Source: Nitrospirota bacterium (GTDB lineage Bacteria; Nitrospirota; Thermodesulfovibrionia; Thermodesulfovibrionales; UBA6898). From it: DNA of 42,216 bases. Positions 2,882 to 29,543 of this stretch are shown here, piece after piece (position 1 is the stretch's first letter; each line of letters starts with the position of its first letter). Where the stretch lies: assembly GCA_016235245.1 (NCBI GenBank), contig JACRLO010000023.1:1-42216 (forward strand). The letters are read 5' to 3'. A program made the translations under genes and the position numbers. The notes beneath the pieces are model-generated. The model did no database searches and was not told the DNA's origin. It worked only from the letters and a program-made list of their open reading frames with translations.

Positions 2882-3026
2882 AAGTCTAATAGTATCGTAG
2901 CATTGTGAAAAGATCAATGCGGTCTCGAAGTGCTAATTACGGTAATTGCTAGTTCACAGTCTTTACAAAAGTAGCCGGCACGGTACACTGATGAGTGAAG
3001 CAACCAACTTCCTCAGGAGGTGTGCC

Positions 3027-10791: not shown

Positions 10792-11100
10792 ATTGTACTT
10801 CGTAAAATTCTAAACACTTAACCTATCTTAAAAGTATCACTTGCCCATGGAGTAGCCATTGACGTTTTGGTGGTAAATGACCTTCCGGCGGAAGAGTCTG
10901 TCTGGCAAGGGTAGCCTGGTGTACGCGAACCAGTTTAAATGCAGTTTGATGTCGACAACAAGCAGCCAAGCGCGCTCGGGCAGCTTTGGGGAGAATTGCA
11001 TACCCAGTAGTCGCAATCTTCAACTATGAAGAAATCAACATCACGCTAGATTGGGAAATTGTTAACTTTTTATCTGTATTTTTGATTGGCGAGGTTTGAA
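10792..11100. other. 309-base gap upstream of the caspase unit
   Basis: No gene is supported. The block 10840-11023 is more GC-rich than its surroundings and contains a minus-strand frame of 66 residues that I do not recognise; it may be a relic of an inserted element. The AT-rich stretch 11040-11085 directly before the first gene is the likely promoter region, but no clear -35/-10 pair stands out. Confidence 0.35.
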
Positions 11101-12186
11101 GTGGATGCTGTTTTTGATCAGATGCGAACTCTAAAGGAAGATAACTGGAAAGCACTCAAGGAAATTCTATACCAGTTAGATGTTATCATAGGTAAGAACC
11201 CATCTAGCAGTATGCGACGCGTGCTAGAAAGCCGTGATTTTGTTCAATATCTTGGCTATTCTTTTAGTCCGAATGAACATCAGGCATTTCTTGATGTATT
11301 GAATTCGAGTTATGGCGAGCATATTGTAGAGACTTTCAAGCGTCGATCGATTCAATATATTTCAAGACTGTTGAGGCTCCTTGAGAGATTCCCGGACCCT
11401 ACGATCGATCAAATGACCAAAATGCGGTGGGAAACATCAATTAAGGGTCTTCTTAGAGATATGGGGGCGCTTGATGATTCCAATTCTACTTTGAAACAGG
11501 TAGAAGATTTCGCGAAATCGACCCTTGAGTTAACAAGATTTACTGCAACTTGGCATGATCCTGAGTTGGTAACTGCGTTGTATCTTCTTGAGATGAGCGA
11601 TAAAGAGGGTAGAGGTATAACACATACGGCGGAAGAATATTTACTTGGAATGGCTCGACGCGAATTGGAGGTACTAATCGATCCTTCAAGCAAAAACTTT
11701 TTCAGTTCACTGCTAGATGATGAGGCGAACATTTGGTGGGGATTACTCACGCTCCTAGACTGGAAGCGGGAAAATTTTGTCATATATCAGTATTCAGGAA
11801 TGGATGGATTTCTAAAAATAATTGACCGGCTATTATCAAGAAATAGCATAACTTATCCCAAGGGTAAGGTGGCTCGGAAAGAAATCACCTTTGAGATACA
11901 ATCAGAACAGAAGACCGTATTATTTATTGGTAGTGCTGCTTTTCAAATCGCAGATATTATCCAAGATAATGAAATTTCAGATTATCCGATGCGTATTCGC
12001 AACCAGGTTCTTGAATTCCAAAAACCGTTCTTGTTCGGGCAAAAAATGCGCCAACCTAGCCATTTGTACTTCAGATGTTTGGAATCTGAGGTCTGGGGAA
12101 GAATGCTTGCATGGAAAGATGGCAAAGGGATGCTTGATGAACGTGGCATTTCTTTACGGCCAGGTAGTTATGTGTTTCATCAATAA
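11101..12186 (+). CDS. stand-alone copy of the caspase-associated domain (unknown family)
   Basis: A protein of 361 residues with no recognised family, predicted mostly helical from its pattern. It is a full-length paralogue of the C-terminal half of the caspase-like protein encoded 2.4 kb downstream. Shared blocks include VEDFAKSTLxLTRF, LIDPSSKN-F, LDDE-N-WWG, VARKE--FEI--EQKT and FRCLE-EVWGR-L-W, in the same order and at similar spacing. I infer a partner that pairs with the protease, as sensor, adaptor or inhibitor. GTG 11101 is preferred over TTG 11086 because GAGG at 11091-11094 sits six bases before it. The next gene starts 64 bases after its stop, on the same strand. Confidence 0.7.
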   Translation: MDAVFDQMRTLKEDNWKALKEILYQLDVIIGKNPSSSMRRVLESRDFVQYLGYSFSPNEHQAFLDVLNSSYGEHIVETFKRRSIQYISRLLRLLERFPDPTIDQMTKMRWETSIKGLLRDMGALDDSNSTLKQVEDFAKSTLELTRFTATWHDPELVTALYLLEMSDKEGRGITHTAEEYLLGMARRELEVLIDPSSKNFFSSLLDDEANIWWGLLTLLDWKRENFVIYQYSGMDGFLKIIDRLLSRNSITYPKGKVARKEITFEIQSEQKTVLFIGSAAFQIADIIQDNEISDYPMRIRNQVLEFQKPFLFGQKMRQPSHLYFRCLESEVWGRMLAWKDGKGMLDERGISLRPGSYVFHQ

Positions 12187-13418: not shown

Positions 13419-13440
13419 TCATCTGCTCAGAAGCAGATGA
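13419..13440 (+). promoter_or_regulatory. hairpin just before the caspase ribosome binding site
   Basis: TCATCTGCT (13419-13427) and AGCAGATGA (13432-13440) form a perfect 9-bp stem with a CAGA loop, ending a few bases before GAGGA (13448-13452) and the chosen ATG at 13461. There is no U-tract, so it is not a terminator. It may damp translation or protect the message. Confidence 0.5.
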
Positions 13441-13460
13441 CTTGTGGCGAGGAACAACGA

Positions 13461-15410
13461 ATGGAAAAAACATATCAGCCATTATATAGGAACTCATTCG
13501 CTCTGTGTATTGGCATTGACAACTACTTAAATCTAGGAAAACTTGAGACTTGCGTTGCTGGAGCCAAAGAAGTCGCAAGCCTTCTTGCACTTCAGAATTA
13601 CAAAGTCATGGGGATTTACAATAGCAAAGCCACAGCCTCAAGCATTCGAAAAGCGCTCGCTGAATTCGCGGAAAGTTCAGCAGAGGATGATCGGGTCTTC
13701 ATATATTTTGCAGGTCACGGTATGCGGAGAAAGAATGTTTCAAACGAAGAGGTAGGTTATTTGGGGCTATATGATACGGGCAAAAATTATAGCAAAGCTC
13801 TTTATTTTCAAGATATTATACGAGAATTTCAATTCATTAAAGCCAAACATATTTTTTTGGCACTTGATGCTTGCTTTAGCGGATTAGCTCTTGCTCGACA
13901 AGGTGACACTATGAGCGTGCCGTCTGACGACATTGGAACTATAGCCCAGAACCTAACTCGCAAGCGCGCGATAGAAATATTAACAGCAGGAGGAGCCAGG
14001 GATTTTGTGTATGATCGGCTCCCATACGGAGAAACAAACCTTTCGCCATTTACGTATTTCCTAACTCAGGGTATCCTGGGAAAAGCTGATTGGAATGGAA
14101 TAATTACTAGTTATAGTTTGGCAGGATACGTGCGCAATAACGTCCAACTTCACGCCTCGGGGCAGATACCACAATTTGGACCAATCCCTGGGAGTAGTAG
14201 CGAAGGAGCCTTCGTCTTTCGCTTTCCGCAGAGTGGATCGGATGAACCTAGATATTTGAAAAATAGCATCCACCTCGATAATAATGCTGTTTCTAGAAAA
14301 CAAGAGCCGGACTTTGATGATACCATTATTCAAATCCAATCTCAGTGGAATGACAATTGGGAATACATAAGGCACTTCATGAAACTATTGGATCAACTTG
14401 CGGAAAGCCATTCTGAAAGCGGTCTTCTACAGGCTCTAGGGAGTAGAGACATATTCTCATGCCTGGGTTTTCCGATGGATGCAACGGAGCATGAAGCATA
14501 TGTATCTCTTCTTCATTCAGCTTATTATGACATAGAGTTAGAAAGTTGCAAGCCAAGATTGAAGCTTTACTTCCGTAGACTTAAGAACCTTTTGGCTAGG
14601 TTTCCTGATGATAAAATACAACTCGAGACAAAAAACAGATGGCAGTCCATTGTTCAAGACATACTCAATACTATGGGGGATGAAGAAGATGCTGCACTAA
14701 CCCTCAAGCGTGTGGAGGATTTCGCAAAATCGACCTTGGCCTTAACAAGATTCACAAATACCGCACACGACCCAGAGCTTATGTCGGCTCTCTATCTAAT
14801 CAAAAAGCTCGACTATGCTGATCATGGTGGTTCCGCCAAAGTCGAACAATTTCTGCTCCAAAAAACCAAACATGAATTGGAGCAGTTGATTGATCCCAGT
14901 AGCAAGAATCTGTTTACTGAGATGCTGGATGATGAAAGTAATGTTTGGTGGGGGATCCTTGTGCTCCTTGACCATTCAATAGAGGACTTTCAAATACACG
15001 ATTATAGGGGGATTTCCGGCAGCATACGTCTCATGGAAAGATTGATTGCTCGAAATAAAATAGTATATCCTAATCATGAGGTAGCACGAAAAGAAGTGGC
15101 TTTCGAAATACATAATGAGCAAAAGACGATTTTGTGGATAAACAATTTGGGATTTCTCATTGCTCAGTTGTATGATCTGAACAAGGTTCAAGGAATTGGA
15201 GATTGTATTCGCAAATATGTATTACTGTTACAACATCCCTTTTTATATGGCGAGAAACCTCGTGTAACTGAAAGTCTCTTTTTCCGGTGTTTAGAGTTGG
15301 AAGTATGGGGACGGATTTTATCTTGGAACTCTGGTATCGCCAAAGATCATATAGGGCGCGAAATAAAACCCGGCGAATATAGGAAGGGCTATAGGTTATT
15401 TAGGGTCTGA
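13461..15410 (+). CDS. caspase-like (peptidase C14) protease with C-terminal paired domain
   Basis: A 649-residue two-domain protein. Residues about 10-257 form a caspase-hemoglobinase fold: FALCIGIDNY first strand, VFIYFAGHG with catalytic His86, and HIFLALDACFSG with catalytic Cys138, both in canonical context. A linker (about 258-287) joins it to a 350-residue helical domain that is paralogous to the protein at 11101. Metacaspase-like enzymes cleave after basic or acidic residues and in bacteria often act as toxic effectors in defence or programmed death. ATG 13461 has GAGGA upstream; an in-frame ATG at 13437 lies within the hairpin and lacks a site. The gap from the preceding gene is 145 bases. 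Confidence 0.85.
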   Translation: MEKTYQPLYRNSFALCIGIDNYLNLGKLETCVAGAKEVASLLALQNYKVMGIYNSKATASSIRKALAEFAESSAEDDRVFIYFAGHGMRRKNVSNEEVGYLGLYDTGKNYSKALYFQDIIREFQFIKAKHIFLALDACFSGLALARQGDTMSVPSDDIGTIAQNLTRKRAIEILTAGGARDFVYDRLPYGETNLSPFTYFLTQGILGKADWNGIITSYSLAGYVRNNVQLHASGQIPQFGPIPGSSSEGAFVFRFPQSGSDEPRYLKNSIHLDNNAVSRKQEPDFDDTIIQIQSQWNDNWEYIRHFMKLLDQLAESHSESGLLQALGSRDIFSCLGFPMDATEHEAYVSLLHSAYYDIELESCKPRLKLYFRRLKNLLARFPDDKIQLETKNRWQSIVQDILNTMGDEEDAALTLKRVEDFAKSTLALTRFTNTAHDPELMSALYLIKKLDYADHGGSAKVEQFLLQKTKHELEQLIDPSSKNLFTEMLDDESNVWWGILVLLDHSIEDFQIHDYRGISGSIRLMERLIARNKIVYPNHEVARKEVAFEIHNEQKTILWINNLGFLIAQLYDLNKVQGIGDCIRKYVLLLQHPFLYGEKPRVTESLFFRCLELEVWGRILSWNSGIAKDHIGREIKPGEYRKGYRLFRV

Positions 15411-15921: not shown

Positions 15922-17322
15922 GTGGCGTATCCGAATCTTTCCGAGATTACTCTTTTAGAAGCTTCGATAGCTATCAAAGGAAAGCAGCTATCTCCAATTG
16001 AATTGGTTTCTGCATGTCTGGCTCGAATCGAAAAACTCAATCCTATCCTAAATGCCTATATTACGGTAGCACACGATGAGGCTTTGAGTAGTGCTCGGTC
16101 TGCCACAGAGGAAATTGCTCAAGGAAATGCATTGAAGCCTTTACACGGTATTCCCATGGGGATCAAGGACGTTTTTGATGTTGCCGGAATGCCAACCACC
16201 GCAGGAAGTTCCCATACTACATTTCCGTCAATCGATAGTACTATTGCCAGAAAGTTAAAGGATGCAGGGGCGATCTTGTTAGGGAAACACAATATGCACG
16301 AATGGGCCTGCGGAGCTACTAATCGTGAGTCACATTTTGGACCAGTTCATAATCCTTGGAATGTGGATTGCATCTCAGGAGGATCAAGTGGAGGTTCAGC
16401 TGCGGCAGTTGCCGCTGGACTGGATCTTGGATCAATCGGAAGTGATACAGCGGGGTCTATCAGAATACCTGCCGCGCTGTGTGGAGTGGTTGGATTAAAA
16501 CCAACTTTCGGCTCAGTAAGTAGAAACGGGATGGTCCCACTAAGTTGGTCATTAGATCATGTAGGGACTATAGCGCGAACAGTTGACGATGTTGAAACGC
16601 TTTTTAAAATAATAGCGCAGAAGCCAACAAACATTGTAGAGAGCAACGAGATCAGTGCTTCAATAGTGCAGGCTGATGGAATTCGGTGCTCAGACAACCT
16701 GGTTGGACTTAGGGTAGGCATACCCAAGACATACTTCTTTGATGGTTTGGATAAGGAAGTCCAGAATGCTCTCCACAAGGCCATAGAAGATATTACAAAC
16801 TTTGGAGCGATAGTAGACGAAGTATCGTTACCGGATGTCGCAGAAGCAGTCAACGCTCATGCAATCATCATGTATAGTGATGCGGCAGCATATCACGAGG
16901 AGTCGCTTGCATCAAATGCTTTGATTTTCAGCGATACCGTGATCGGAAGGCTAAGGCGAGGGCAAGAGTACAAAGCCACAGAGTACTCAAAAGCAAAGCA
17001 AATACAATCGAGTTGGACTAAATGTTTGGAGCACCTATTTCAAAAGATCGATGTTCTTATTACTCCAACAACGGCGGTGCCAGCCCCTCATATCATTAAA
17101 GTACCAAATAGCGAAAATCGTCCTTTGATACTGTTGACATGTTTGTTTAACCTTACAGGCAATCCGGCTATATCATTACCATGTGGGTTTACATCTCTTG
17201 GACTTCCAATTGGCATGCAGTTGGTGGCAAAAAAGTGGTACGAATCGACTCTTGTTGCAACAGCAAGATTCTATGAGCAATCTCATCCATGGTCGAAGCA
17301 ACGTCCTGGCATTCCAAGTTAA
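15922..17322 (+). CDS. amidase signature family hydrolase (GatA/AtzF-like)
   Basis: A 466-residue amidase signature enzyme that hydrolyses an amide bond. The Ser-cisSer-Lys triad is complete: Lys82 in GIPMGIKDVFD, Ser155 in ISGGSSGGSAAAVAAG, and nucleophile Ser179 in GSDTAGSIRIPA. Length and the C-terminal NLTGNPAISLPCGF block are typical. No gatB or gatC lies nearby, so it is more likely a catabolic or biosynthetic amidase than a tRNA amidotransferase subunit. GTG 15922 has GAGG at 15911-15914. It is followed by the small tautomerase-like gene, and the pair may belong to one pathway. Confidence 0.88.
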   Translation: MAYPNLSEITLLEASIAIKGKQLSPIELVSACLARIEKLNPILNAYITVAHDEALSSARSATEEIAQGNALKPLHGIPMGIKDVFDVAGMPTTAGSSHTTFPSIDSTIARKLKDAGAILLGKHNMHEWACGATNRESHFGPVHNPWNVDCISGGSSGGSAAAVAAGLDLGSIGSDTAGSIRIPAALCGVVGLKPTFGSVSRNGMVPLSWSLDHVGTIARTVDDVETLFKIIAQKPTNIVESNEISASIVQADGIRCSDNLVGLRVGIPKTYFFDGLDKEVQNALHKAIEDITNFGAIVDEVSLPDVAEAVNAHAIIMYSDAAAYHEESLASNALIFSDTVIGRLRRGQEYKATEYSKAKQIQSSWTKCLEHLFQKIDVLITPTTAVPAPHIIKVPNSENRPLILLTCLFNLTGNPAISLPCGFTSLGLPIGMQLVAKKWYESTLVATARFYEQSHPWSKQRPGIPS

Positions 17323-17486
17323 ACTTCTGTCGCACTGGACTGCATGCACTTTGGGAACAAGAGTGAAACGAGTTAAACATGGAATGCATGCATTATTATG
17401 AGCTTCCTCGTCATTTCAGTGAAAATCTTGAACTAAGAACCGAGATTATTCCGTGCCTCAAAATTTTGTTATTCGGGTAACCAAAA

Positions 17487-17852
17487 ATGCCGGTAGTTGA
17501 CATCAAGTTCAAAGAACGTGTTGTGGCAGGCCATCAATTATGTGGCATCGCAGAAGATGTTGCTCGGGTAGTGGCATGTCACCTTGACTCACTGCCGGAG
17601 CATGTGTCAGTGGAAATCATACCTCAAACACCTTGGATCTTGAATCGCAAGGACATCGATATCGAGGTGAGACTGCACCTGTCTTCTCGTAGTAACCAAC
17701 GTCCAGCGATTGCAGAGCTTGCAAGAGCACTTGTGAATTTGGCTGAAAGATATCTTGCAGAGCAAGATATCACATGCTCACTAAGTGCGACAATTCAAGT
17801 ATTTCAAGAGGGGGTATATGAGCATTCCGTGAAGAATGAAAACGGGAGCTAG
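17487..17852 (+). CDS. small tautomerase-like protein (tentative)
   Basis: A 121-residue protein starting Met-Pro-Val-Val, as in the 4-oxalocrotonate tautomerase superfamily where Pro2 becomes the catalytic N-terminal proline. The helix IAEDVARVVACHL and the following strand VSVEIIPQTPW would fit the family beta-alpha-beta layout. The remaining part is less typical, so the assignment is tentative. No strong ribosome binding site is seen. Its stop codon at 17850-17852 coincides with the point at which the minus-strand remnant of the HTH-protein family loses homology, which suggests that an insertion or deletion happened here. Confidence 0.45.
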   Translation: MPVVDIKFKERVVAGHQLCGIAEDVARVVACHLDSLPEHVSVEIIPQTPWILNRKDIDIEVRLHLSSRSNQRPAIAELARALVNLAERYLAEQDITCSLSATIQVFQEGVYEHSVKNENGS

Positions 17853-18161
17853 AGTTGAGTCGTATACCCCATGAGGCAATCGTCTCTGAGTTGGCCTCGT
17901 CCCCGGTGGGCTTGATCGCCGTGTCATTGAGTGGCTCGATTGGATTGGCATTGCCAAGATTCGTGCGAGCACTGAAAAAAATCTCATCAGCTCGCTCCAT
18001 AAACTCTTGATGCCATTGGGTCAACAACTCCTACTAATCTGATTCTGATTGCAAATGTTTTTTCGTCTTCGGGGATTTCGTAAATACTCGAGCACGACTC
18101 TCAACTTGAGATCGGGTGAGTATTGAGCATCATTCTCGACCTGAGTTTTTCGTATGGTCAT
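17853..18161 (-). pseudogene. broken third copy of the OrfA-HTH large protein (N-terminus)
   Basis: Reading left from ATG 18161, the peptide opens with QYSPDLKLRVVLEYLRNP, matching the N-terminus of the two intact large proteins (EYSPEFKLRVVLQYLQDP and HSPEFKLRAVLEYVRSP). The frame breaks after ICNQNQI and resumes in another frame as LLTQWHQEFMERADEIF, then SWGIRLN, where homology ends at about 17855. About 500 C-terminal codons are gone. It is therefore a frameshifted and truncated remnant of a third repeat unit. Confidence 0.75.
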
Positions 18162-18328
18162 GTCAACCCTCCCCCAGTATTATATCTGAAAAATTACTTT
18201 CTAACGTCAAGTGAATCGGCTTTTCCAAAATCGCGGAACGATGAAGAGAAAACTTACTCGACGATTGAGTGGGGTTCTACCAACCGAATGTACGCTATGC
18301 CATAATTGTTAATCTTATGACGCATTAA

Positions 18329-18362
18329 AAAAGTCCACGCCTTTTATCAAGCGTGGACTTTT
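18329..18362. terminator. strong intrinsic terminator, readable on both strands
   Basis: AAAAGTCCACGC (18329-18340) pairs perfectly with GCGTGGACTTTT (18351-18362) around a 10-base loop. A- and T-runs at the two ends make it usable in both directions. It would end the minus-strand array arriving from the right. Confidence 0.75.
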
Positions 18363-18666
18363 GATTCTTCAAGCCAACGTAACAGTAACAGGAATGGTAT
18401 TCACCTTAGCTGTGCAGTCCCCCATTCCAATAACCAGTCTCGCCATCAAAGTGATGGGTAAGGTGTTGTGTAATTGACTACTTGATGAACACAATGTTCT
18501 GGGACAAATGACCACTGAGCGAGTTCGCCAACCCAATCCCCATAATAGAAATGCACCGCTCGCGCTGCGACTGTACTACAATGCCACCAATGCTCGCGTC
18601 GTTCCCAACAGAGCGGCAAGGTGTAACGTATTCGACGCGAGACAGCACCTCCAAGCTAATACGGGT
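18363..18666 (-). other. unassigned stretch upstream of the terminator
   Basis: Two minus-strand frames are open here. One covers 18478-18693 (about 60-70 residues, with SVGNDASIGGIVVQSQRE) and one ends at 18372 with the hydrophobic tail NTIPVTVTLA, just before the terminator. They could be parts of one broken gene joined by a frameshift, but I recognise neither and no ribosome binding site supports them. Confidence 0.25.
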
Positions 18667-19080
18667 GTAAATAAATGGCGGTGCCGCAAGCACTGCCTTT
18701 TTTATTCCCAGGTCTTAGAGACCAAGCTCCTCTTTCCTTCCCGCCAACAATATTTCATCCCCGATCTCTGCTGGCAGTGTCTTGATCATTTCCCTCAACC
18801 GGTGCTGGTACAGGCTGAGAGTGAGATTGATAAGGAGGGTTTCGCGCCAAGACCCAGAATAATCCTTTAGGATAAGCAGACCTTCGATCACCTTGACCAT
18901 AGCAAGACCATTCCCGATTATGCGGTTGTAAGGTGTTTCAAAGTGAAAACCATTCGGAAAGGAGAACTGGGTTGTCGAAGAATTGGGATCTGGGTTTTTC
19001 CGAGTATTGTCGTCCATGGCAGAATTCTATCACACAAAGATGGAATGACAAACTGGGTCATATCCAACATCTTTGGATTA
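18667..19080. repeat. repeat unit copy A (companion gene plus flanks)
   Basis: This block is a close direct repeat of 21460-21870, similar from the hairpin (GGCGGTGCCGCAAGC) through the companion gene to the AACATCTTTGGATT motif beyond its start. It shows that the large-protein/companion unit was duplicated in tandem. Confidence 0.85.
18715..19017 (-). CDS. 100-residue companion protein, copy A
   Basis: A small protein of unknown family. It shares almost its entire length with the 99-residue protein at 21509-21808, including RIIxNGLAMVKVIEGLL, LKDYSGSWRETLLIN and LPAEIGDEILLAG. The first 20 residues are polar and variable, the rest amphipathic helix-like. No signal peptide or HTH is seen. 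Both copies lie directly downstream of a large OrfA-HTH protein gene on the minus strand, so the two are probably functionally linked. The ATG lacks a good ribosome binding site, yet the surrounding bases are conserved between copies. Confidence 0.7.
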   Translation of the reverse strand: MDDNTRKNPDPNSSTTQFSFPNGFHFETPYNRIIGNGLAMVKVIEGLLILKDYSGSWRETLLINLTLSLYQHRLREMIKTLPAEIGDEILLAGRKEELGL

Positions 19081-19586
19081 TTGCTGCTCACAACTTCAGT
19101 ATCAGCTTTGGGATTTTTGGCTCACTGTTTATGATTTTTTCCAGTCCTTGTAGGGCAGCCAATCCCTTCTTTGTCAGCGAGCATTTTTTGTTGTTCTTGG
19201 AGACGAATCCAGATTCCCCAGCGTCTTCAGGTGTTTAGAATTCCGATGTTTTCAATGAGATGTCAGAAAATTCAACACATCACTGTGGCAATCAAGAATA
19301 TTGCACATACGGCAGGAGTTGTCCCTGCCGTACATTTTTTGCTGTGCCTCTGTTGCCATAACGCCAATTCGCGCTCACCTAGACTCTTGCTGGAGAAAGC
19401 GTTCCTGATGAAGACAAAAATCGCGCTAATGCCGTAAGCACGCTCGTGTTTATGCACTGGAAGTTGTTACGAATGAAAGTTGTTGTCAGACGGCTTGGTT
19501 TTGTTACAACTTCTAGTGATCTGCCGCCACAATCGCCACATGAACCTCCACCTGGGTTTCCGTCATCTTTTTTGAGTGGAATTGCT
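19081..19586. other. 506-base gap with one hairpin
   Basis: It lies between large protein A and companion A. I see no supported gene; minus- and plus-strand frames of 60-90 residues overlap here without family features. The hairpin at 19308-19332 is listed separately. Confidence 0.4.
19308..19332 (+). terminator. terminator-like hairpin
   Basis: TACGGCAGG (19308-19316) and CCTGCCGTA (19324-19332) form a perfect 9-bp stem followed by CATTTTTTG on the plus strand. No plus-strand gene is evident upstream, so its role is unclear. It may block antisense reading into large protein A. Confidence 0.55.
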
Positions 19587-21386
19587 TTACTCCATTTCTT
19601 TCGGAGCTTTTAGTTTTTTCTTTCCGCGCATTGTCTCATGGTCGTGATCTCCAAGCCACTGCTCACTTTCCCCTCGCACGTTTGCAGGAACACAGATCGA
19701 TCGTGCGCGTCTCTCATGCAGGACAGCCAAAAGATCATCGTCACTCATGGAGTCTACCTGTATCCCAAATCGCTCACGAAATCCATTGACATCCAACGCA
19801 TATGCGAGGGTTTCGAGCATTGCCCAATTCGTCATATGCTCCACGCGACTGCCTGCCTTCTTCCAAGGATGCTCTAGATCCTCTAGTTCTCCTAGCCACG
19901 TGATGTAGCCAGTTTCAACTTCTTCGATCCCATATCGCGCTCGCATCACCTTTCCGACTTTGTATAGTTGGTGAATCCCGCTGTGATCCCAAAGCTGGCG
20001 CGTTAGTTGCTTGGCAGTCTTTTCATCGTCCTGGGTAGTGGTTGAATAAATCAGATATCCACCATCTGAAATTCCAAAGCGCTTCTCGACCTCAATTTGT
20101 TTTGGGTCTAACTGCAGGCGACCAGTAATCCCTGCAACCGATGGGAACTTTTCGTCGTAGCGATACAATTTTCCAAAAGACATCTCCCAGGTCTTGAAGC
20201 TGTCCGGTGCGTGTTCTAATTCAATGACGGCGCGATATGTAATTCGCGCAGGTTCTAGCGCGCTCGGATCAATACGATACGGCGTTAGGTCCATCCTGGG
20301 TCTGATTGCCGTTTCGTCCTTCGACAATTCAATCTTTTGTTTGGCATCTTCGTTCTTTTTCTGGATCGCCATCAGCTCTTGTTCCGTCCATGCCAGGACT
20401 TCTCCCAACCGGATAAAGTACGGACTGTAGCGCTTGAATTCATTGGGCTCTTCAATGCAACTCTGCCAAAACCACCCATTTGACTCCGCGACCACGGTAC
20501 CACGGTTAGGAGGCAAATCGCAGACCCAGGTTTCAGACGAATCGTCTCGCACCCAAGACAACGGTCGGGTAGAGAGATCAATATCTTTGGCGGAACCTTC
20601 GCGTGCGCCGGACAAGAGTAAATGGATGAGTGTCTTCCAGAATTGCTCCTGCTCCTTGGCGTCCTCTTCCGCCATTTGTTGCAATATCGATTCATGTTCG
20701 GCTAAGAAAGCCAGAAACTCTGGTGCTGCTTGCGGACTCAGTCGCATGCGTTCAACTTCAGCATGCGGGCGATCTGATACTACCTTCTCCTCTTTTGCTT
20801 TCGCATTGGATTTCTTTGCTGGACGCTTTAGTTCGGGCGCTGCCGGCATGGGTGAAGATGGTATGCGTTGAATGATGGGGATTCCTTCGGTTCGCCACTC
20901 CGTTGTTTTGCCAAATGTCTCTACCAGTTCCAACGCTTGTTTCGCCGAAATGACTTCAAGCTTTTGAGGGGGATTATCCCAGATGACAACCCCACGCTTG
21001 GACTTCCACTTTTCACGCTCCACTGGACCCAGCCACGCCGGTGGTTCATTGGAACTGGAGGCAGACTTGTATGAGCCGTACTTTTCATAGTTGATCCGTA
21101 GGCCCCAGGAAGGGACGACCTTCTCGACTTGTCCTGTGTATCTTGGTCCGCCATTTGAACTATTTACTGCACTCGCTACCTGCGCTGGCGAAGAAAAACC
21201 AAAAATCTGATTGGCGCGCGCAATAAACTCCTGATGCCAAAAGGTCAGTAGCTCTTCTCCGATTTGATTCTCAACACAAATCTGCTTGGCTTGTTGCGGG
21301 TCTTGCAAATATTGAAGCACGACCCGCAACTTGAACTCGGGCGAGTATTCTACCGTTACCTGTGGTTTCGCTTTTCGCTTGGGCAT
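19587..21386 (-). CDS. large protein with IS3-OrfA-type HTH and novel C-terminal region, copy A
   Basis: A 599-residue protein. Residues about 12-58 are a helix-turn-helix of the IS3/IS911 OrfA type (SPEFKLRVVLQYL, then QICVENQIGEELLTFWHQEF). The remaining 530 residues are not transposase-like. A Lys/Ala-rich linker is followed by conserved blocks shared with copy B: RGV-IWD, TWVCD-PPNRGTVV, DLTPYRIDP, EMSFGKL-RYDE, ARYGIEEVET and LAYALDV-GFRER. There is no DDE triad. I infer a DNA-binding protein with a recruited or domesticated OrfA head. The ATG has a GGAGG site. Companion B lies upstream, and companion A downstream in transcription direction. Confidence 0.7.
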   Translation of the reverse strand: MPKRKAKPQVTVEYSPEFKLRVVLQYLQDPQQAKQICVENQIGEELLTFWHQEFIARANQIFGFSSPAQVASAVNSSNGGPRYTGQVEKVVPSWGLRINYEKYGSYKSASSSNEPPAWLGPVEREKWKSKRGVVIWDNPPQKLEVISAKQALELVETFGKTTEWRTEGIPIIQRIPSSPMPAAPELKRPAKKSNAKAKEEKVVSDRPHAEVERMRLSPQAAPEFLAFLAEHESILQQMAEEDAKEQEQFWKTLIHLLLSGAREGSAKDIDLSTRPLSWVRDDSSETWVCDLPPNRGTVVAESNGWFWQSCIEEPNEFKRYSPYFIRLGEVLAWTEQELMAIQKKNEDAKQKIELSKDETAIRPRMDLTPYRIDPSALEPARITYRAVIELEHAPDSFKTWEMSFGKLYRYDEKFPSVAGITGRLQLDPKQIEVEKRFGISDGGYLIYSTTTQDDEKTAKQLTRQLWDHSGIHQLYKVGKVMRARYGIEEVETGYITWLGELEDLEHPWKKAGSRVEHMTNWAMLETLAYALDVNGFRERFGIQVDSMSDDDLLAVLHERRARSICVPANVRGESEQWLGDHDHETMRGKKKLKAPKEME

Positions 21387-21425
21387 CCTAACCTCCGGTC
21401 ACCGCCCCACTTGGCATGTAGAAAT

Positions 21426-21453
21426 TTGACACCAGAAAGAAAAAACATATAAT
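21426..21453 (+). promoter_or_regulatory. perfect-consensus sigma70 promoter inside the array
   Basis: TTGACA (21426-21431) and TATAAT (21448-21453) are separated by 16 bases. It points right, antisense to the companion gene, and transcription would begin near 21460, directly before the terminator hairpin at 21471-21497. In copy A the matching place (about 18631-18660) holds only a degraded version. Confidence 0.7.
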
Positions 21454-21470
21454 GCAGGCGTAAACAAATG

Positions 21471-21497
21471 GCGGAGCCGCAAGCCCCGCCGTTTTTT
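21471..21497 (+). terminator. terminator hairpin immediately after the consensus promoter
   Basis: GGCGG and CCGCC, extended by GC/GC around a CGCAA loop, are followed on the plus strand by six T. In copy A the hairpin is kept with a pairing change (T-A in place of A-C), so the fold appears to be under selection. With the promoter at 21426 it would define an RNA of only about 40 bases. Confidence 0.6.
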
Positions 21498-21508
21498 ATT
21501 CCCAGGTC

Positions 21509-21808
21509 CTAGAGACCAAGCTCCTCTTTCTTTCCCGCTAGCAGTATTTCATCCCCGATCTCAGCTGGCAATATCTTGATCACTTGCCTCAACCGGTGTT
21601 GGTACAGGCTGAGAGTGAGATTGATCAGGAGGGTTTCGCGCCAAGACCCAGAATAATCTTTCAAGACAAGCAGGCCTTCAATCACCTTGACCATAGCAAG
21701 TCCGTTTTCGATTATGCGGTTGTAAGGTGTTTCCAAGTGAAACCCATTTGGAATGGAGAATTGGATCGAAGAATTGGAGTCTGGGTTTGTCTGAGTATTT
21801 TCGTCCAT
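21509..21808 (-). CDS. 99-residue companion protein, copy B
   Basis: Unknown family, near-identical in its core to the protein at 18715-19017. The core NGLAMVKVIEGLLVLKDY and RETLLINLTLSLYQHRLR look helical and could pack as a small adaptor or antitoxin-like fold, though nothing in the sequence proves this. It lies between large protein B (upstream) and large protein A (downstream), 128 bases from the first. It ends eleven bases from the hairpin that carries the plus-strand U-tract. Confidence 0.7.
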   Translation of the reverse strand: MDENTQTNPDSNSSIQFSIPNGFHLETPYNRIIENGLAMVKVIEGLLVLKDYSGSWRETLLINLTLSLYQHRLRQVIKILPAEIGDEILLAGKKEELGL

Positions 21809-21936
21809 AACAGAATTCTACCACACAAACATGGACCGACAAATTTTGTCACATGCAACATCTTTGGATTTTTGACTCTTTTCCAAAAGTAAAGTCACTC
21901 AATCTGGGAACCTACTGCTCGCTGCAAGGGTCAACC

Positions 21937-23715
21937 CTATTCTGAATGCCGTTTGATCCATTGCTCGCTTTCCGTTCGCGCCGCCACAGGAATGTGTTTA
22001 GATTGCGCACGCCTATGGTGTAAAATATCCAGTATCTTGTCATCGGTAATGAGATTAGGCGATAGGTGCAGTCGTTCCCTGAATCCATCCACATCTAGCG
22101 CATAGGCCAGAGTTTGTTCCAGTGCCCAATCTGCCATGTGTTGCTCTCTGGTTCGCGGTGACCGCCAGGGTTGTTCAGGGTCTTCCAATCCTCCTAACCA
22201 TGTGCAGTATTGAGTTTCAACTTCCTCAATTCCATAACGTGCCTGCGTGATCTTACCCTCTTTGTATAGACGTTGAATTCCACTTGCATCCCACAGATGT
22301 TGTGCTTGCGTCGTGGCGATTTGTGCTTGGTAGTAGATTGCGGTCGAATGAATGAGATTGTACCCGTAATTCGGACCTGCCGGTTGCTCAATCGTTGCGA
22401 CAATGTCACTGATTCCCAATTCACCAGCGACCCGCATCGGACCAGGAAATTCTTCATCGTATCGCCAGAGCTTGCCAAATGACATCTCCATCGTCTTGAA
22501 GTGTTCCGGCTGATGCGTCAAGTCGATCAACACCCGATACGTAACCTGCTCCGGCTCAAGCACACCAGGATCGATGCGGTAAGGTGTGAGATCAATCCTG
22601 GATTTGTTAGACACCGTCACCATCTCAGTCTTTGCCAACGTTTGTTTTTCAGTGGCTTCGGTCCCCTCGTTCTGGATCGTCAATAGTTCTTGTTCGGTCC
22701 ACCGCAGCGCTTCTTCCAAATCTGGAAAGAACGGACTATCGTGCTTGAAACGATTGGGACGCTCAATAAAACTGGACCAACACAAATTCGATTTGTCGAG
22801 AACGACCGTTCCGCGATTCGGAGGCATATCGCAGACCCAGGTGTGTGATTCAGCGCGACGCAACCACGGCAATGTCCGTTTCGCCAGATCAATCTTGTTC
22901 TCTTCATCTGTCTGTACCCAACCCAGGATCATTGTATAAACCTGACCTAAGACCTTTCGTCGATGTTTGTCGTCTTCCTCCGCCATTTCCCTCAGAAGAG
23001 CTTCGTGTTTCTCCAAGAAAGCGAATACCTCATCGCCGACCTCCACTTTCAGGCGGAATCGTTCTTCCTCGACCAGTTCCGGCTTGGGCTGTTTCTGTTG
23101 AAGGGCTAGATCAGCCTCTGCCTTTTCTTTCTTGCCGGATCGTTTTTGCTTCGGATCTTCCGACACGTCGAGGAGCGTGACGAGTCTTGTAATGGTGATA
23201 CCTTCTTTTCGCCACTCATCGTTCTTGCGCAATTTCGCCAATAACCTTAGCGCTTCACCAGCAGAAAGATCTTCGAGCTTCCGCATGTGTTCATCCCAAA
23301 TCAGGACGCCGCGCTCATTGATCCACTCCTCCTGATAAGATTTAGGAAGCCAAGACGGTGGTTTGGTTGAACAAGACGGAGGGTGAAACGAGCCATACGT
23401 ACCCTTATTGAGTCGAATGCCCCAAGATAGCTCAGTGGGTGAAACCCTGGAATCGACTTTTAGAGAATCGGTTGCGCCAATCTCTTGACTTGCCGATTGG
23501 GATTGCGCAGGAGAATTCATAGAACCCGAGAAAATCTGGCTTGCTCCGGCAAGGAACTCTTGATGCCATTGTACAAGTAACTCTTCGCCGATTCTATATT
23601 CCTGACAAATTTGGTTTTTCCTTTTGGGACTGCGAACGTATTCCAGCACTGCTCTTAGTTTGAATTCGGGCGAATGGTTTTCTTCGGCATTTGACATACT
23701 TTGGGGTTTGGGCAT
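21937..23715 (-). CDS. large protein with IS3-OrfA-type HTH and novel C-terminal region, copy B
   Basis: A 592-residue paralogue of the protein at 19587-21386, similar along its whole length. The N-terminal OrfA-like HTH (residues about 13-58) has HSPEFKLRAVLEYV and GEELLVQWHQEF. The shared blocks TWVCDMPPNRGTVV, DLTPYRIDPG, EMSFGKLWRYDEEFP, ARYGIEEVET and LAYALDVDGFRER follow. There are no catalytic DDE residues and no terminal inverted repeats around the gene. The ATG has GGAGG at 23721-23725 and a TATAAT -10 at 23733-23738, so it probably heads the minus-strand array, with a very short leader. Function unknown; DNA binding inferred from the head domain. Confidence 0.72.
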   Translation of the reverse strand: MPKPQSMSNAEENHSPEFKLRAVLEYVRSPKRKNQICQEYRIGEELLVQWHQEFLAGASQIFSGSMNSPAQSQSASQEIGATDSLKVDSRVSPTELSWGIRLNKGTYGSFHPPSCSTKPPSWLPKSYQEEWINERGVLIWDEHMRKLEDLSAGEALRLLAKLRKNDEWRKEGITITRLVTLLDVSEDPKQKRSGKKEKAEADLALQQKQPKPELVEEERFRLKVEVGDEVFAFLEKHEALLREMAEEDDKHRRKVLGQVYTMILGWVQTDEENKIDLAKRTLPWLRRAESHTWVCDMPPNRGTVVLDKSNLCWSSFIERPNRFKHDSPFFPDLEEALRWTEQELLTIQNEGTEATEKQTLAKTEMVTVSNKSRIDLTPYRIDPGVLEPEQVTYRVLIDLTHQPEHFKTMEMSFGKLWRYDEEFPGPMRVAGELGISDIVATIEQPAGPNYGYNLIHSTAIYYQAQIATTQAQHLWDASGIQRLYKEGKITQARYGIEEVETQYCTWLGGLEDPEQPWRSPRTREQHMADWALEQTLAYALDVDGFRERLHLSPNLITDDKILDILHHRRAQSKHIPVAARTESEQWIKRHSE

Positions 23716-23792
23716 TGTGACCTCCGGAGAGCATTATATCAGAGGTTGTTTGAATCACTTTCAAGGCGAACCTGGGCACTCGTAAGATGTTT

Positions 23793-23820
23793 TTGCTCAA
23801 AAGCGCAACTGGGCTATAAT
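23793..23820 (+). promoter_or_regulatory. promoter for the excisionase-like gene
   Basis: TTGCTC (23793-23798), 16 bases, TATAAT (23815-23820), about 40 bases before ATG 23862. It is divergent from the promoter of the large protein B gene, so both genes start from the same short intergenic region. Confidence 0.6.
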
Positions 23821-23861
23821 GTGCTCGTTCGCATACTCGCCAGTAGCGCAGAGATGGTGCA

Positions 23862-24107
23862 ATGAACCAAGCCGGGTCAGATTGGATTTCAGTCGTTGAG
23901 GCGTGCAAAATCCTCGGAGTTGCACGCAACACCCTTAAGAAACTTATCCGCGAGGGCACTCTTCCTGCGTACACAATCCAAGGTGTTGCAGGATATAGAC
24001 TCAAGCGCCAAGACGTAGAAGCTTTGCTCCAACCGGTGGTTGTCCATACTCCCAAGAAACAGAAACGGAATCGAAAGACAAGCCGAGGCAAGTCTAGCTC
24101 GCGCTAG
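23862..24107 (+). CDS. excisionase/MerR-like winged HTH DNA-binding protein
   Basis: An 81-residue protein of the excisionase-type (HTH_17) family. ISVVEACKILGVARNTLKKLIREG is the helix-turn-helix and LPAYTIQGVAGYRLKRQDVEALL the wing and closing helix. The tail is strongly basic (KKQKRNRKTSRGK). Such proteins act as recombination directionality factors or small regulators. No integrase is visible in this window. Its place between the divergent large-protein array and the comM joint makes a role in the mobility or control of this island plausible, but that is inference. Confidence 0.75.
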   Translation: MNQAGSDWISVVEACKILGVARNTLKKLIREGTLPAYTIQGVAGYRLKRQDVEALLQPVVVHTPKKQKRNRKTSRGKSSSR

Positions 24108-24136
24108 TCAAGTTGTCTGACATCGCAGGAACTCAG

Positions 24137-24155
24137 CTCAATTTATGCAATTGAG
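24137..24155 (+). other. small hairpin after the excisionase-like gene
   Basis: CTCAATT (24137-24143) and AATTGAG (24149-24155) form a 7-bp stem with a TATGC loop. There is no U-tract. It may be a weak terminator or part of the junction region; no attachment-site duplication can be checked because the other end is not in view. Confidence 0.3.
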
Positions 24156-24249
24156 TGCTCTTGTAGGACAGACTTGTTGCAGTCCAGACGTTCGCATGTA
24201 GCACTATTCCTCCCTCGAGGCTACATCGTATCTTGAATCGCACATTGTG

Positions 24250-24728
24250 TGTATCCCTGTCCATGTGGCTATTATGGTGATCCGGTCAAAGAATGCACCT
24301 GCTCGTTGACCAATGTGATGCGCTACCAAAAACGTCTTAGCGGTCCGCTCCTAGATCGCATCGATATTCACATCGAAGTGCCGCGCGTCGATTACGAAAA
24401 ATTGTCTGGCGACCGACTGGGCGAAACGTCGGAAAAGATCCGCGCGCGAGTGGAAGTGGCGCGCGAACGTCAGCACAAACGCTTTGGTGGGACGGGCTTG
24501 CAATGCAATGGCGATATGGGACCAGGTGAAGTTCGCAAATATTGCGTGGTCGACGACGCGGGGAAAAATTTGTTGCGCGCGGCGATGCAGCAAATGCAAA
24601 TGAGTGCGCGCGCATACCATCGCATTTTGAAATTGGCGCGCACGATTGCGGACTTGGCGGGCTGTGACCACATCGAGACGCCGCATCTCGCCGAAGCGAT
24701 TCAGTATCGACCCAGGAAGCAGAACTGA
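24250..24728 (+). pseudogene. comM: comM/yifB-type Mg chelatase-family ATPase, C-terminal third only
   Basis: The peptide begins abruptly in the Cys-rich PCPCGYYGDP-KECTC motif of ComM/YifB ATPases and continues with RYQKRLSGPLLDRIDIHIEV (the conserved sensor segment), then SARAYHRILKLARTIADL and the terminal HLAEAIQYRP. About 340 N-terminal residues, with the Walker A and B motifs, are absent. In intact homologues the preceding codon is Asn; here it is Tyr and the bases to the left show no relation. Residue similarity is high throughout, so the truncation looks recent. comM is a known insertion target of genomic islands in other bacteria (for example AbaR elements in Acinetobacter), which fits the shift in base composition here. 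Confidence 0.85.
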
Positions 24729-25115: not shown

Positions 25116-26000
25116 GTGCCTAAACGCGTATCCAAGCGAAGCGTATCGCGTCTAGTTCGACAGTTGGCCAAAGCGCGCGGCTCACTCATGATTATCGGCG
25201 GAGCGGAAGACCGCTCTGGTGAGCGGCGAGTCCTGCGCGCCTTTGTCGAATTGGCAGGTGGACGCGACGCGCGCATTGTTATCATTGCCGTTGCATCCGC
25301 CACGCCCACCGTCGTCGGTTCGACGTATGTTCAAATCATCAAAGAACTTGGAACCAAGCAGGCGACTTTATTAGATCTCGCGACGCGCGAAGATGTGGTC
25401 GCGCCGCGCGCTTTGGAAACGATTCATAAAGCCACCGGCGTTTTTTTTACCGGCGGCGATCAAGTGCGCATTTCGCAATTGATCGGCGGCACGGCGCTGG
25501 ATCGATTGCTCATTACGCGCCACCGCGAGGGTCTCGTCGTGGGCGGAACCAGTGCGGGCGCAGCCATCATGTCGTCGATCATGATTGTCGGCGGGCTGGG
25601 ATATGGTTCGCTGCGCATGGACAACGTCGAACTGGGATCGGGCATGGAATTTTTGCCGGGCGCGATCATCGATCAGCACTTTCAACAACGATGGCGCTTT
25701 CGGCGATTGTTGGCGGCGGTGGCGCAGTATCCTTTTGAATTAGGCATCGGCATCGACGAAGACACGGCGATCATCGTCCAAAATGGAATGTTTCAGGTGA
25801 TTGGTTCTGGCGGAGTGACGGTGATCGACGGTAAGCGCATCACGCATGTGAGTCGGCCGGAAGCGAGTGACGATGGGATTTTGGCTTTGTGCGGTCTAAC
25901 CGTTCACGTGTTGACCGAGAATATGGGATACGATCTAAAAAGTCGCAAGCCAATTGTCGATTGGAGGCAATCAAATGAAACTCGAAGCTCCGCGCGGTAG
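25116..26000 (+). CDS. cphB: cyanophycinase, first paralogue
   Basis: A 294-residue serine peptidase of family S51 that cleaves cyanophycin into beta-Asp-Arg dipeptides in the cytoplasm. The nucleophile motif is GGTSAGAA (Ser146), preceded by FFTGGDQ and followed by GSGMEFLPGAIIDQHFQQR, all hallmarks of the family. About 20 basic residues precede the fold start (GSLMIIGGAEDRSG), so the true start may be later than GTG 25116. It overlaps the second cyanophycinase gene by 26 bases, so they are co-transcribed. Confidence 0.92.
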   Translation: MPKRVSKRSVSRLVRQLAKARGSLMIIGGAEDRSGERRVLRAFVELAGGRDARIVIIAVASATPTVVGSTYVQIIKELGTKQATLLDLATREDVVAPRALETIHKATGVFFTGGDQVRISQLIGGTALDRLLITRHREGLVVGGTSAGAAIMSSIMIVGGLGYGSLRMDNVELGSGMEFLPGAIIDQHFQQRWRFRRLLAAVAQYPFELGIGIDEDTAIIVQNGMFQVIGSGGVTVIDGKRITHVSRPEASDDGILALCGLTVHVLTENMGYDLKSRKPIVDWRQSNETRSSAR

Positions 26001-26871
26001 ACTGCTTGCCATCGGTGGACATGAAGATAAAGGAGCCAAGTGCGAGATCTTGAAAGAATTCGTGCGTCTGGCAAAAGGCAAAGCCAGCTTGGTCGTCATG
26101 ACCATCGCCGCTAAAAATGCAAAAGAACTGGGTAAAGAATATGCACGCGTATTTAGAAATTTTGGTGTAAAGGATATAACCGTGGTCGATATTAGCACGC
26201 GGGAAGATACCCACACCAAAAAATCGGTGCTGGCAATTGAGAAGGCGACCGGCGTATTCTTTACCGGCGGCGATGCCTTGGATGTCACGGGTTTGCTCGG
26301 CGGTACAGAAATCGATCGCTTACTGCACAAACGATATGAAGAAGGCATGATCTTGGGGGGAACTAGCGCAGGTGCGGCGATGATGTCTCATGCGATTATT
26401 ATCGACGGTGAAAGCGATGCCAATCCTCGCTTGAGCGATGTGCAAATCGCGCCGGGCGAAGAATTTATCATGGGCGCAATTATCGATACGCATTTTTCAC
26501 AGCGCGGGCGTCATGGTCGCCTGATTTCGGCGGTCGCTCAGCATCCGCACGATTTAGGCATTGGCATCGATGAAAATACGGCGATCTTGCTCGAAGACCA
26601 TCAATTCCGCGTCCTAGGTGAGGGCGCGGTAACCGTGATTGACGTTGGTTCGGCAAAATATACGAACGTGCCGGACGCGAAAGAAGGCGAGAGTTTGGCG
26701 TTGTATGATGTCAAAATGCATATTCTGCCAGCGGGGCATGGCTTTGATTTGGAAGCGCATCAACCTCTGATGAAGCGTGAGGCAGAAAAACAAAAAGAAG
26801 AACGGAAAAAATCAACCCAGAAACGTGACCACAGTAAAAAGTCGAAAAGCAAGAATCAGAGGACGAAATGA
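25975..26871 (+). CDS. cphB: cyanophycinase, second paralogue
   Basis: A 298-residue S51-family cyanophycinase with intact nucleophile Ser131 (LGGTSAGAAMMS), FFTGGDALDV and FIMGAIIDTHFSQRGR. It differs from the first paralogue along most of its length, so this is not a recent duplication. It ends in a strongly charged Lys/Glu/Arg tail of about 35 residues, absent from the first copy, that may bind the polymer or nucleic acid. ATG 25975 is chosen because GGAGG stands eight bases upstream. Its stop overlaps the start of cyanophycin synthetase by four bases (ATGA). Confidence 0.92.
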   Translation: MKLEAPRGRLLAIGGHEDKGAKCEILKEFVRLAKGKASLVVMTIAAKNAKELGKEYARVFRNFGVKDITVVDISTREDTHTKKSVLAIEKATGVFFTGGDALDVTGLLGGTEIDRLLHKRYEEGMILGGTSAGAAMMSHAIIIDGESDANPRLSDVQIAPGEEFIMGAIIDTHFSQRGRHGRLISAVAQHPHDLGIGIDENTAILLEDHQFRVLGEGAVTVIDVGSAKYTNVPDAKEGESLALYDVKMHILPAGHGFDLEAHQPLMKREAEKQKEERKKSTQKRDHSKKSKSKNQRTK

Positions 26872-29543
26872 GAATCGGTGGATTCAAAAGTATTCCGGGT
26901 CCCAATATCTATAGTTACGATCCGGTGCTGGTGATGAAACTTTATTTGGACGATCTGGTGAACACGTCGAGCGCACAGCTTCCCAGTTTTACGGATCGGT
27001 TGCTCGCGCAGTCACCGGGCTTGCGGGAACATCGATGCTCCGAAGGACAACCCGGTGGATTCGTCATGCGGATGCGTGAGGGGACGTATTGCGGACATAT
27101 TGTCGAACATGTCGCGTTGGAATTATCGGGCGCAGTCGGAATTCCCGTCGGCTTTGGCAAGACGCGTTATGCGGGTGAATCAACCGCATACAATGTGATC
27201 GTCGAGTGTCCCAATGAAGCGGGGATGCGTTCTTTATTGGAAATCTCCGTCGCGTTAGTCGAAGCGTTAATCAAAGGTGAATCGTTTCCACTTGAAGAAC
27301 GATTGCGTGCCGTGCGCCGCCTGGTCGACGACACCGAACTGGGACCCAGCACGCGCGAAATCGTCAAGGCCGCGCAGCGCCGAGGGATTCCGTGGTTGCG
27401 TTTGAACCAAGGAAGTCTCGTGCAACTTGGCTATGGCAAGCATCGCAAATTAATCGAGGCGGCGATGGCAGATACGACGTCGGCAGTAGCGGTTGAAGTG
27501 GTGAGCGACAAACAACTGACCAAGGCATTGCTGGAGCGCGCCTTTATTCCGGTTCCACGGGGAGAGACAGTCAAGAATGAAGAGGAGGCGGTCGCAGCGT
27601 GGCAGCGGCTTGGCGAACCGGTCGTGGTCAAGCCGCTCAATGGTTCGCAAGGGCAAGGTGTCTCGCTCAATCTGAATAGCGAAGAAGAGATTCGACGCGC
27701 GTTCAAATTCGCGCATGAACTTGCGCCTAATGTGTTGATCGAGGAATTGTATCGCGGAAAAAATTATCGCGTCTTGGTGGTGAATGGTAAAATGATTGCC
27801 GCGAGCGAGCGACTGCCCACGATGGTGGTCGGCGATGGCGTGCATACGATTGCCGAGTTGGTGGACATGGTCAACCAAGACCCACGTCGCGGCGAAGAGC
27901 ATACGAAACCGCTCACGCGCATTGTGTTGGACAAGATCGTGATGGAGCGACTGACGAAATATGGTATGACGCCTGAGCAGATTCCGGCAAAAGACGAGCA
28001 AGTGATTTTGCGCGAAAGCGCCAATCTTTCGACGGGTGGCACCGCCATCGATGTGACCGACCGGGTGCATCCGGAGACGATTAAAATTTGCGAACGAGCA
28101 GCGCGCATCATGGGGCTCGATCTTTGCGGGGTGGACTTGGTCGCCGACGATATCTCGCAACTGCTTGAATCGCATAATGGCATTTTGGAACTCAACGCGT
28201 CGCCGGGGTTGCGGATGCACGTTTTTCCAAGTGAGGGTCAATCCCGTCCCGTCGGTGATGCAATTATCAACTTGTTATTTCCACGCGGAAAACCTACACG
28301 CATTCCCATTGTGTCGATTACGGGCACGAACGGCAAGACGACGGTCACGCGCATGATCGGACATATCTTGAGTGAAGCAGGGCATGTCGTAGGCATGACT
28401 TCAACCCATGGCGTGTCGATCAATTGCGAAATGGTCACGCACGGTGACGATACCGGTCCGCGTTCGGCGCAGATTGTGCTTTGCGATCCGCTCGTCGAAA
28501 TTGCCGTATTGGAAACTGCGCGCGGCGGCATTGCGCGTTCGGGCTTGGGATACGATTGGTCGGATGTAGGCGTCATCACCAATATTCAAGCCGATCATAT
28601 CGGACAAGATGGCATCGAGAGTATCGACGATTTAATTTATATCAAATCCCTGGTGGCAGAACGCGTCAAGGAACATGGGACGCTCATTCTAAACGCCGAT
28701 GACGAAAATGTGAGGTCGATTGTCGATGCACCTCGCGTGCAAAAAATCAAACGACAGATCGTTTACCTGGCGCAATCATCCGACAATCCGTACCTCGAGC
28801 GTCATCGTCTGCAAGACAAGACTGTTTTCTTTGAACAAAGAGGCTGGATTGTCGAAGCGCACAGCTATGCCGAATATCGAATAGTGCAAGTGGCCCAAAT
28901 TCCTGTCACGCTGGGCGGGCAGGCGCACTTTAATATTATGAATGCAATTGCGGCTGTGGCAGCTTGTCGCGCCTTGGGCGTTTCGCGCGAACGCGTCGCG
29001 AGTGGCATTGTAAAATTCCTGGGATTGACGCACAACGAAGGGCGTGCCAATTTGTATCGCGTTGCAAGCGGCTATGTGCTGCTCGATTATGGACACAACG
29101 CGCACGCATTTCAAGCCATCGCGCAAATGGCAGCCGAACAACAGAAACGACGGGTGACCGGAGTGATAACGGTCCCCGGCGACCGGGCGGACCGGGTGTT
29201 GGAGCAAGCGGGGCAAGCAGCAGCGCGTGGCTTTGATCGAATCATTGTGCGCGAGGATCATGATTTGCGCGGTCGCCAACCCGGTGAAATCGCGAGACTG
29301 TTGCAGCAAGCGATTCAAAACGAAAATCCCAAATGTGATTGCACGGTCGTTTTGGATGAAGAGCAATCGTTCGCGCAAGCGTTGCAAGAGATGCAAGCGG
29401 GTGAACTGGTCGTCATGTTTTACGATAGTTTTGAAAAAGCGCAGCGCGTGTTAGAACATTTCGGCGCAGTGCCGGTCGACGATGCCAAGGAGTATGCGCT
29501 GGCATTCGCGCCGAAGCTTGAAATGGTGGGCGACGCGCTGTGA
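26868..29543 (+). CDS. cphA: cyanophycin synthetase
   Basis: An 891-residue synthetase that adds Asp to the backbone and Arg to the side chain of cyanophycin, using two ATP-dependent active sites. The N-terminal domain (about 1-160) is typical. An ATP-grasp domain follows (VVVKPLNGSQGQGVSLNL, then LCGVDLVADD and LELNASPGLRMH). The Mur-ligase-like domain begins at the Walker A motif TGTNGKTT (residues 485-492). Length matches the family. It is the last gene of the operon, followed by a strong terminator. Synthesis and breakdown enzymes being co-expressed suggests rapid turnover of a nitrogen and carbon reserve. Confidence 0.95.
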   Translation: MRIGGFKSIPGPNIYSYDPVLVMKLYLDDLVNTSSAQLPSFTDRLLAQSPGLREHRCSEGQPGGFVMRMREGTYCGHIVEHVALELSGAVGIPVGFGKTRYAGESTAYNVIVECPNEAGMRSLLEISVALVEALIKGESFPLEERLRAVRRLVDDTELGPSTREIVKAAQRRGIPWLRLNQGSLVQLGYGKHRKLIEAAMADTTSAVAVEVVSDKQLTKALLERAFIPVPRGETVKNEEEAVAAWQRLGEPVVVKPLNGSQGQGVSLNLNSEEEIRRAFKFAHELAPNVLIEELYRGKNYRVLVVNGKMIAASERLPTMVVGDGVHTIAELVDMVNQDPRRGEEHTKPLTRIVLDKIVMERLTKYGMTPEQIPAKDEQVILRESANLSTGGTAIDVTDRVHPETIKICERAARIMGLDLCGVDLVADDISQLLESHNGILELNASPGLRMHVFPSEGQSRPVGDAIINLLFPRGKPTRIPIVSITGTNGKTTVTRMIGHILSEAGHVVGMTSTHGVSINCEMVTHGDDTGPRSAQIVLCDPLVEIAVLETARGGIARSGLGYDWSDVGVITNIQADHIGQDGIESIDDLIYIKSLVAERVKEHGTLILNADDENVRSIVDAPRVQKIKRQIVYLAQSSDNPYLERHRLQDKTVFFEQRGWIVEAHSYAEYRIVQVAQIPVTLGGQAHFNIMNAIAAVAACRALGVSRERVASGIVKFLGLTHNEGRANLYRVASGYVLLDYGHNAHAFQAIAQMAAEQQKRRVTGVITVPGDRADRVLEQAGQAAARGFDRIIVREDHDLRGRQPGEIARLLQQAIQNENPKCDCTVVLDEEQSFAQALQEMQAGELVVMFYDSFEKAQRVLEHFGAVPVDDAKEYALAFAPKLEMVGDAL

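Follow-up and report, generated by a model that had tools for sequence, protein, structure and literature searches.

Among the closest described systems are the insertion sequences of the IS3 family, such as IS911, whose OrfA product regulates transposition itself and carries a helix-turn-helix (HTH) that serves as its specific DNA-binding domain (PMC2909936). In the window, by which we mean the whole stretch of 42,216 nucleotides that was analysed (contig 23 of its assembly, positions 1-42216), two large proteins, here called L1 and L2, share with IS911 OrfA an N-terminal HTH of about 50 residues that is matched by the same profile, PF01527. Unlike the IS3-family proteins, they are encoded without a downstream OrfB/DDE frame and without element ends that could be found, and they carry an extension of 500 residues that is unrelated to OrfB by all profiles used. 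A second point of comparison is the TnpA protein of IS66-type elements (NF047595, NF038385), models of which match the same HTH segment (residues 12-68, E 0.005). However, these matches reach 16-17 bits against cut-offs of 74-150 and are not full-length, the L protein has 599 residues compared with 113-190, and no TnpB or TnpC adjoins the array, its neighbours being the small genes S1 and S2, the remnant psiL3, an amidase gene, an HTH_17 protein and a yifB fragment.

Residues ~12-60 are the sole part of L that matches known families, and what they match is the HTH of IS3/IS66-type transposases. PF01527 (HTH_Tnp_1) finds the heads of L1 and L2 at E 0.0011 and 0.011, scores that lie under the gathering score of 24.1 bits and thus limit how far a regulatory role can be read into them; the IS66 TnpA and IS3 models match weakly as well, and a PHROG transposase match was obtained for L2 at E 5e-5. 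Between L1 and L2, the recognition-helix segment GEELLxxWHQEF is kept, and columns 41-60 of the HTH alignment are identical at 14 of 20 positions, equal to any block of L. The architecture described in the earlier note, namely an IS3-OrfA-like HTH joined to a region of ~500 residues, is therefore upheld, with an HTH that is real but weak and a region that is unannotated. A literature search brought up no relevant work on OrfA-type HTH fusions that were domesticated in bacteria.

The large proteins and their unannotated region

L1 (599 aa; 19587-21386, minus strand) and L2 (592 aa; 21937-23715, minus strand) were delineated from the list of open reading frames, paralogue alignment and profile searches; in L2, the OrfA-type head (~residues 12-65) is followed by a region of ~500 aa without a known family. 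Both frames are intact, as had been claimed, and align end to end with 46% identity (tblastn E ~1e-160); the blocks TWVCD-PPNRGTVV, DLTPYRIDP and ARYGIEEVET, singled out beforehand as strongly conserved, are exact in both proteins, and conserved blocks reach the C-terminus. Synonymous sites between the two genes are saturated, and the excess of pS (0.78) over pN (0.35), which holds over most of the length, indicates that both frames have been under selection at the protein level.

For the region of ~500 aa, searched both whole and in segments, no usable match came from Pfam, NCBIfam, PHROGs, PADLOC or the PDB sequences, and L had no matches on plasmids, phages or viral contigs. No DDE or integrase-core profile matched L1, L2 or their segments, or the adjacent proteins that were scanned. 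This agrees with the earlier statement that the region is not a DDE nuclease, in the sense of missing profile matches only, because structure prediction of L failed: an AlphaFold2 model of L1 from a two-sequence alignment reached a pLDDT of 40, and for that reason fold matches to it were not used. Among these, a phage SAM lyase-like fold at residues 375-507 (Z 7.6, rmsd 5.5) lay within the background range, and ferredoxin-like matches were likewise set aside.

Within the assembly, L is present as two intact copies and one remnant at one locus, with none found elsewhere in it, the true host probably being represented there by fragments only. A search of 27 genomes of the family, 230 of the class and 396 of the phylum, a phylum that is probably not the contig's own, returned nothing outside the assembly except OrfA-like heads; in the phylum scan these head-only matches fell in OrfA-like frames of 85-120 aa with 22-39% identity. 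Scans of genome contigs with exact octapeptides, and then with HTH patterns only, found nothing, although distant relatives could escape such scans. The copy-number check proposed in the earlier note thus yielded a single locus in this assembly, while its comparative half produced no homologue of L in the other genomes searched beyond those heads. Of the two findings that the earlier note named as refuting it, a C-terminal match to a known transposase accessory protein and homologues confined to one insertion sequence, neither turned up in these searches, which yielded no homologue of the C-terminal region. By these sequence searches, which covered the likely host phylum only in part, the C-terminal region of L appears to match no known family, and distant homology is possible.

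Small genes, transcription signals and the history of the array

On the minus strand, the order of the array is L2, S2, L1, S1 and psiL3, such that it is wider than the interval 19587-23715, outside which S1 and psiL3 fall. Each large gene is followed by a small one, and the claim that the two small genes are near-identical is borne out by the alignment: S2 (99 aa; 21509-21808, minus strand) and S1 (100 aa; 18715-19017, minus strand), both taken from the list of open reading frames, are 87% identical, with dS 0.35, dN 0.059 and dN/dS 0.17. Judging from these substitution patterns, the S proteins, like the L proteins, are subject to purifying selection. The model of S predicts a helical core of three helices (pLDDT 75), for which Foldseek found no match at E <= 0.001 in the PDB or BFVD, and profile and sequence searches, Pfam, NCBIfam and PADLOC included, matched nothing to S. 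The remnant of a third large gene, psiL3 (17809-18161, minus strand), was recognised by alignment to L1; its degenerate head aligns with L1 residues 1-42 and 45-116, comprising the HTH and the SWG motif, and is interrupted by a frame break and stops, the remainder of the gene being gone.

A motif scan placed a promoter-like site, TTGTCA-16-TAGAAT, immediately upstream of S1 (19024-19051, minus strand), ending 7 nt before the ATG, and a second one, TTGTCG-16-TAGAAT, in the same register upstream of S2 (21815-21842, minus strand); elsewhere in the window, no further sites matched TGTGNTAGAATTCTG at up to two mismatches. A -10 box at such a position has been taken to indicate a leaderless gene (PMC3160421), and the two S sites would be of this leaderless type. 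Stable hairpins lie 3' of both genes, at 18677-18697 for S1, where the sequence is terminator-like on the plus strand, and at 21470-21490 for S2 (z about -3.5 to -3.9), where the T-run that follows is strong on the plus strand and weaker on the minus strand. Taken at face value, these conserved promoter-like and terminator-like signals suggest that each S gene is separately transcribed. CCGGAGG Shine-Dalgarno sequences precede L1 and L2. Reading by eye, with the spacing also counted by eye, we noted TTGAAA-20-TATAAT upstream of L2 (23733-23764, minus strand; unscored by the scan) and, in the same register, TTGACG-20-TATAAT upstream of psiL3 (18179-18210, minus strand). A perfect 12/12 sigma-70 consensus, TTGACA-16-TATAAT, is present at 21426-21453 on the plus strand, opposite to all genes of the array and with the S2 hairpin following after ~20 nt; a very short RNA might start from it, or its occurrence may be due to chance.

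With these data in hand, the notion that the array is no more than functionless leftovers, that is, decaying genes in which an OrfA HTH was fused by accident, seems very improbable to us. It would account for the dead psiL3 and for the gene fragments that abound around the array, but it sits badly with two stop-free frames of 590-600 aa, conserved to the C-terminus and with pN well below pS, as well as with the dN/dS of 0.17 in S and the retention of promoter-like and Shine-Dalgarno signals.

The ages of the two gene pairs differ. Since dS is 0.35 for S and saturated for L, the S copies must have split, or have last been homogenised, long after the L copies, and hence the earlier proposal that the large and small genes were amplified in tandem as a pair is not the simple history; a recent amplification of the whole L-S unit is rejected on the same contrast. 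One history in which the unit was duplicated as a single block and the S copies were later homogenised by gene conversion is possible, if somewhat short of probable. It would explain the order L-S-L-S and the presence of an S block of ~390 bp that is 84-89% identical, including the promoter, ~65 bp of upstream sequence and the downstream hairpin, beside L proteins of 46% identity. However, the data are explained equally if just the S block was duplicated at a later time, and a single genome cannot separate the two; block duplication with conversion is compatible with any function of the array.

Genomic neighbourhood and origin of the contig

Beside L2 and divergent from it lies an excisionase-type HTH_17 gene (23862-24104, plus strand; TIGR01764, E 1.6e-12), which adjoins a yifB/comM fragment (24249-24728) that starts at PCPCG and is missing its 5' two-thirds. 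GC rises across this point, and the break might mark where DNA was inserted or deleted, or else a join made during assembly. These surroundings bear on the possibility that the L proteins serve a mobile element not yet described, as accessories or in transposition itself, with catalysis carried out by the C-terminal region or by a part located elsewhere. The OrfA-type HTH, the lower-GC region next to the truncated yifB at 24249, the excisionase-type gene alongside, the IS982-type remnant at 2946 and the decay of the third copy, as is often seen with transposon genes, would all fit such an element. Nevertheless, no terminal inverted repeats stood out in 17300-24300, no further copies were found in the assembly (in which the true host is probably represented by fragments only), on plasmids, in phages or in viral contigs, and no nuclease domain was matched, and we consider a mobile element unlikely. 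The search for terminal repeats gave no convincing pair, although short repeats could escape it and there is no second copy by which ends might be defined. Neither a tRNA nor an Rfam match was found at which an integration might have been anchored, and in an empty-site comparison with congeners the flanks of the array had no counterpart there.

Towards the other side of the array, ~4 kb from S1, lies a caspase gene of the type associated with EACC1 (13437-15410; 57.5 bits against an NCBIfam cut-off of 140). It is preceded by a partial paralogue (11086-12186), which consists of the C-terminal half only and is 44% identical to it. Conflict systems of this type favour multicellular bacteria (PMC7159879). 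A conflict system for defence, against invaders or of the toxin-immunity kind, in which a large variable L would be paired with a constant small S, might be suspected from the tandem paralogues with diverged L and constant S and from the nearby caspase gene with its truncated tandem paralogue. We regard this as quite unlikely, given that L1, L2, S1 and S2 had no PADLOC match at E up to 1, that L and S lack matches to EACC1, caspase or effector domains, that S has transcription signals of its own, and that an amidase gene separates the caspase gene from the array. The earlier suggestion of an unknown mobile or conflict element was accordingly not borne out in either form, there being no other copies in the assembly, no defined ends and no nuclease or toxin domain.

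Further away in the window are a fragmentary IS982-type transposase (2946-3620), two tandem cyanophycinase-like genes (25116-26871 and 26868-29543, 42% identical) with a cyanophycin synthetase after them, and a multihaem cytochrome (33623-36313, minus strand) with MtrC/MtrF-like domains and a stretch of collagen-like repeats near its N-terminus.

The contig itself is probably misbinned and appears compositionally foreign to its Nitrospirota bin. In tetranucleotide usage, segments of the window correlate with the other contigs of the assembly at 0.30-0.58, compared with 0.76-0.94 for those contigs among themselves. The RelA encoded in the window shares 41% identity with the RelA on contig 6, which is the assembly's own; a RelA match was found in 277 of 296 phylum genomes, with one copy each where listed and at most 48% identity among the matches listed, and this assembly is the only one of the 296 with two copies. 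It also carries a full yifB besides the fragment in the window. That the phylum of the bin is Nitrospirota is suggested by the occurrence of the sequence of Ntspa712, which we take to be a Nitrospirota 16S probe, in the 16S genes of two members of the phylum. Contigs 36 and 40 share the composition of the window, and contig 40 carries an IS256 transposase whose closest match among plasmids comes from Herpetosiphon (Chloroflexota; 60%), the next other genus being at 37%. The true host may therefore belong to Chloroflexota, which is a guess, and transposases move. Given the misbinning, the absence of the family from the genus, family and class of the bin says little on its rarity, and, more generally, an orphan status judged against the taxonomic relatives of a bin that contains foreign contigs would mislead.

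A possible role for the L and S proteins

We tentatively propose that L is a domesticated DNA-binding regulator with an OrfA-type HTH, representing a small, lineage-restricted family, a proposal to which we would give slightly less than an even chance. An IS3-OrfA-type HTH would have become fused to an unrelated region of ~500 aa, and at least three tandem copies would once have stood at one chromosomal locus, of which one has since died. The HTH might hold L at a DNA site, and the C-terminal region might dimerise or bind a ligand or partner, with L acting as a local transcriptional regulator; the small helical S, presumably transcribed separately, could be a common partner or target of L. Domestication is consistent with the single-locus copy number, the lack of an OrfB/DDE partner and the lack of terminal repeats, in a host genome that is present as fragments only. 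In the earlier note, a domesticated transposase-derived regulator had been suggested, and it is the domestication that these features fit, regulation being what we infer. An extra region of 500 aa is also large for a simple regulator and may be an enzyme.

Beyond the proposed regulator, we speculate that the region of ~500 aa might be a new domain family without described members, which acquired a transposase HTH and functions together with the constant S as a new kind of DNA-targeting regulator or conflict module, a reading that we judge to be improbable as a whole. Should the C-terminal region turn out to be a new domain, the array would clearly exemplify how the DNA-binding head of a transposase can be taken over by an unrelated protein, and S would be a second, conserved small protein and its possible partner.
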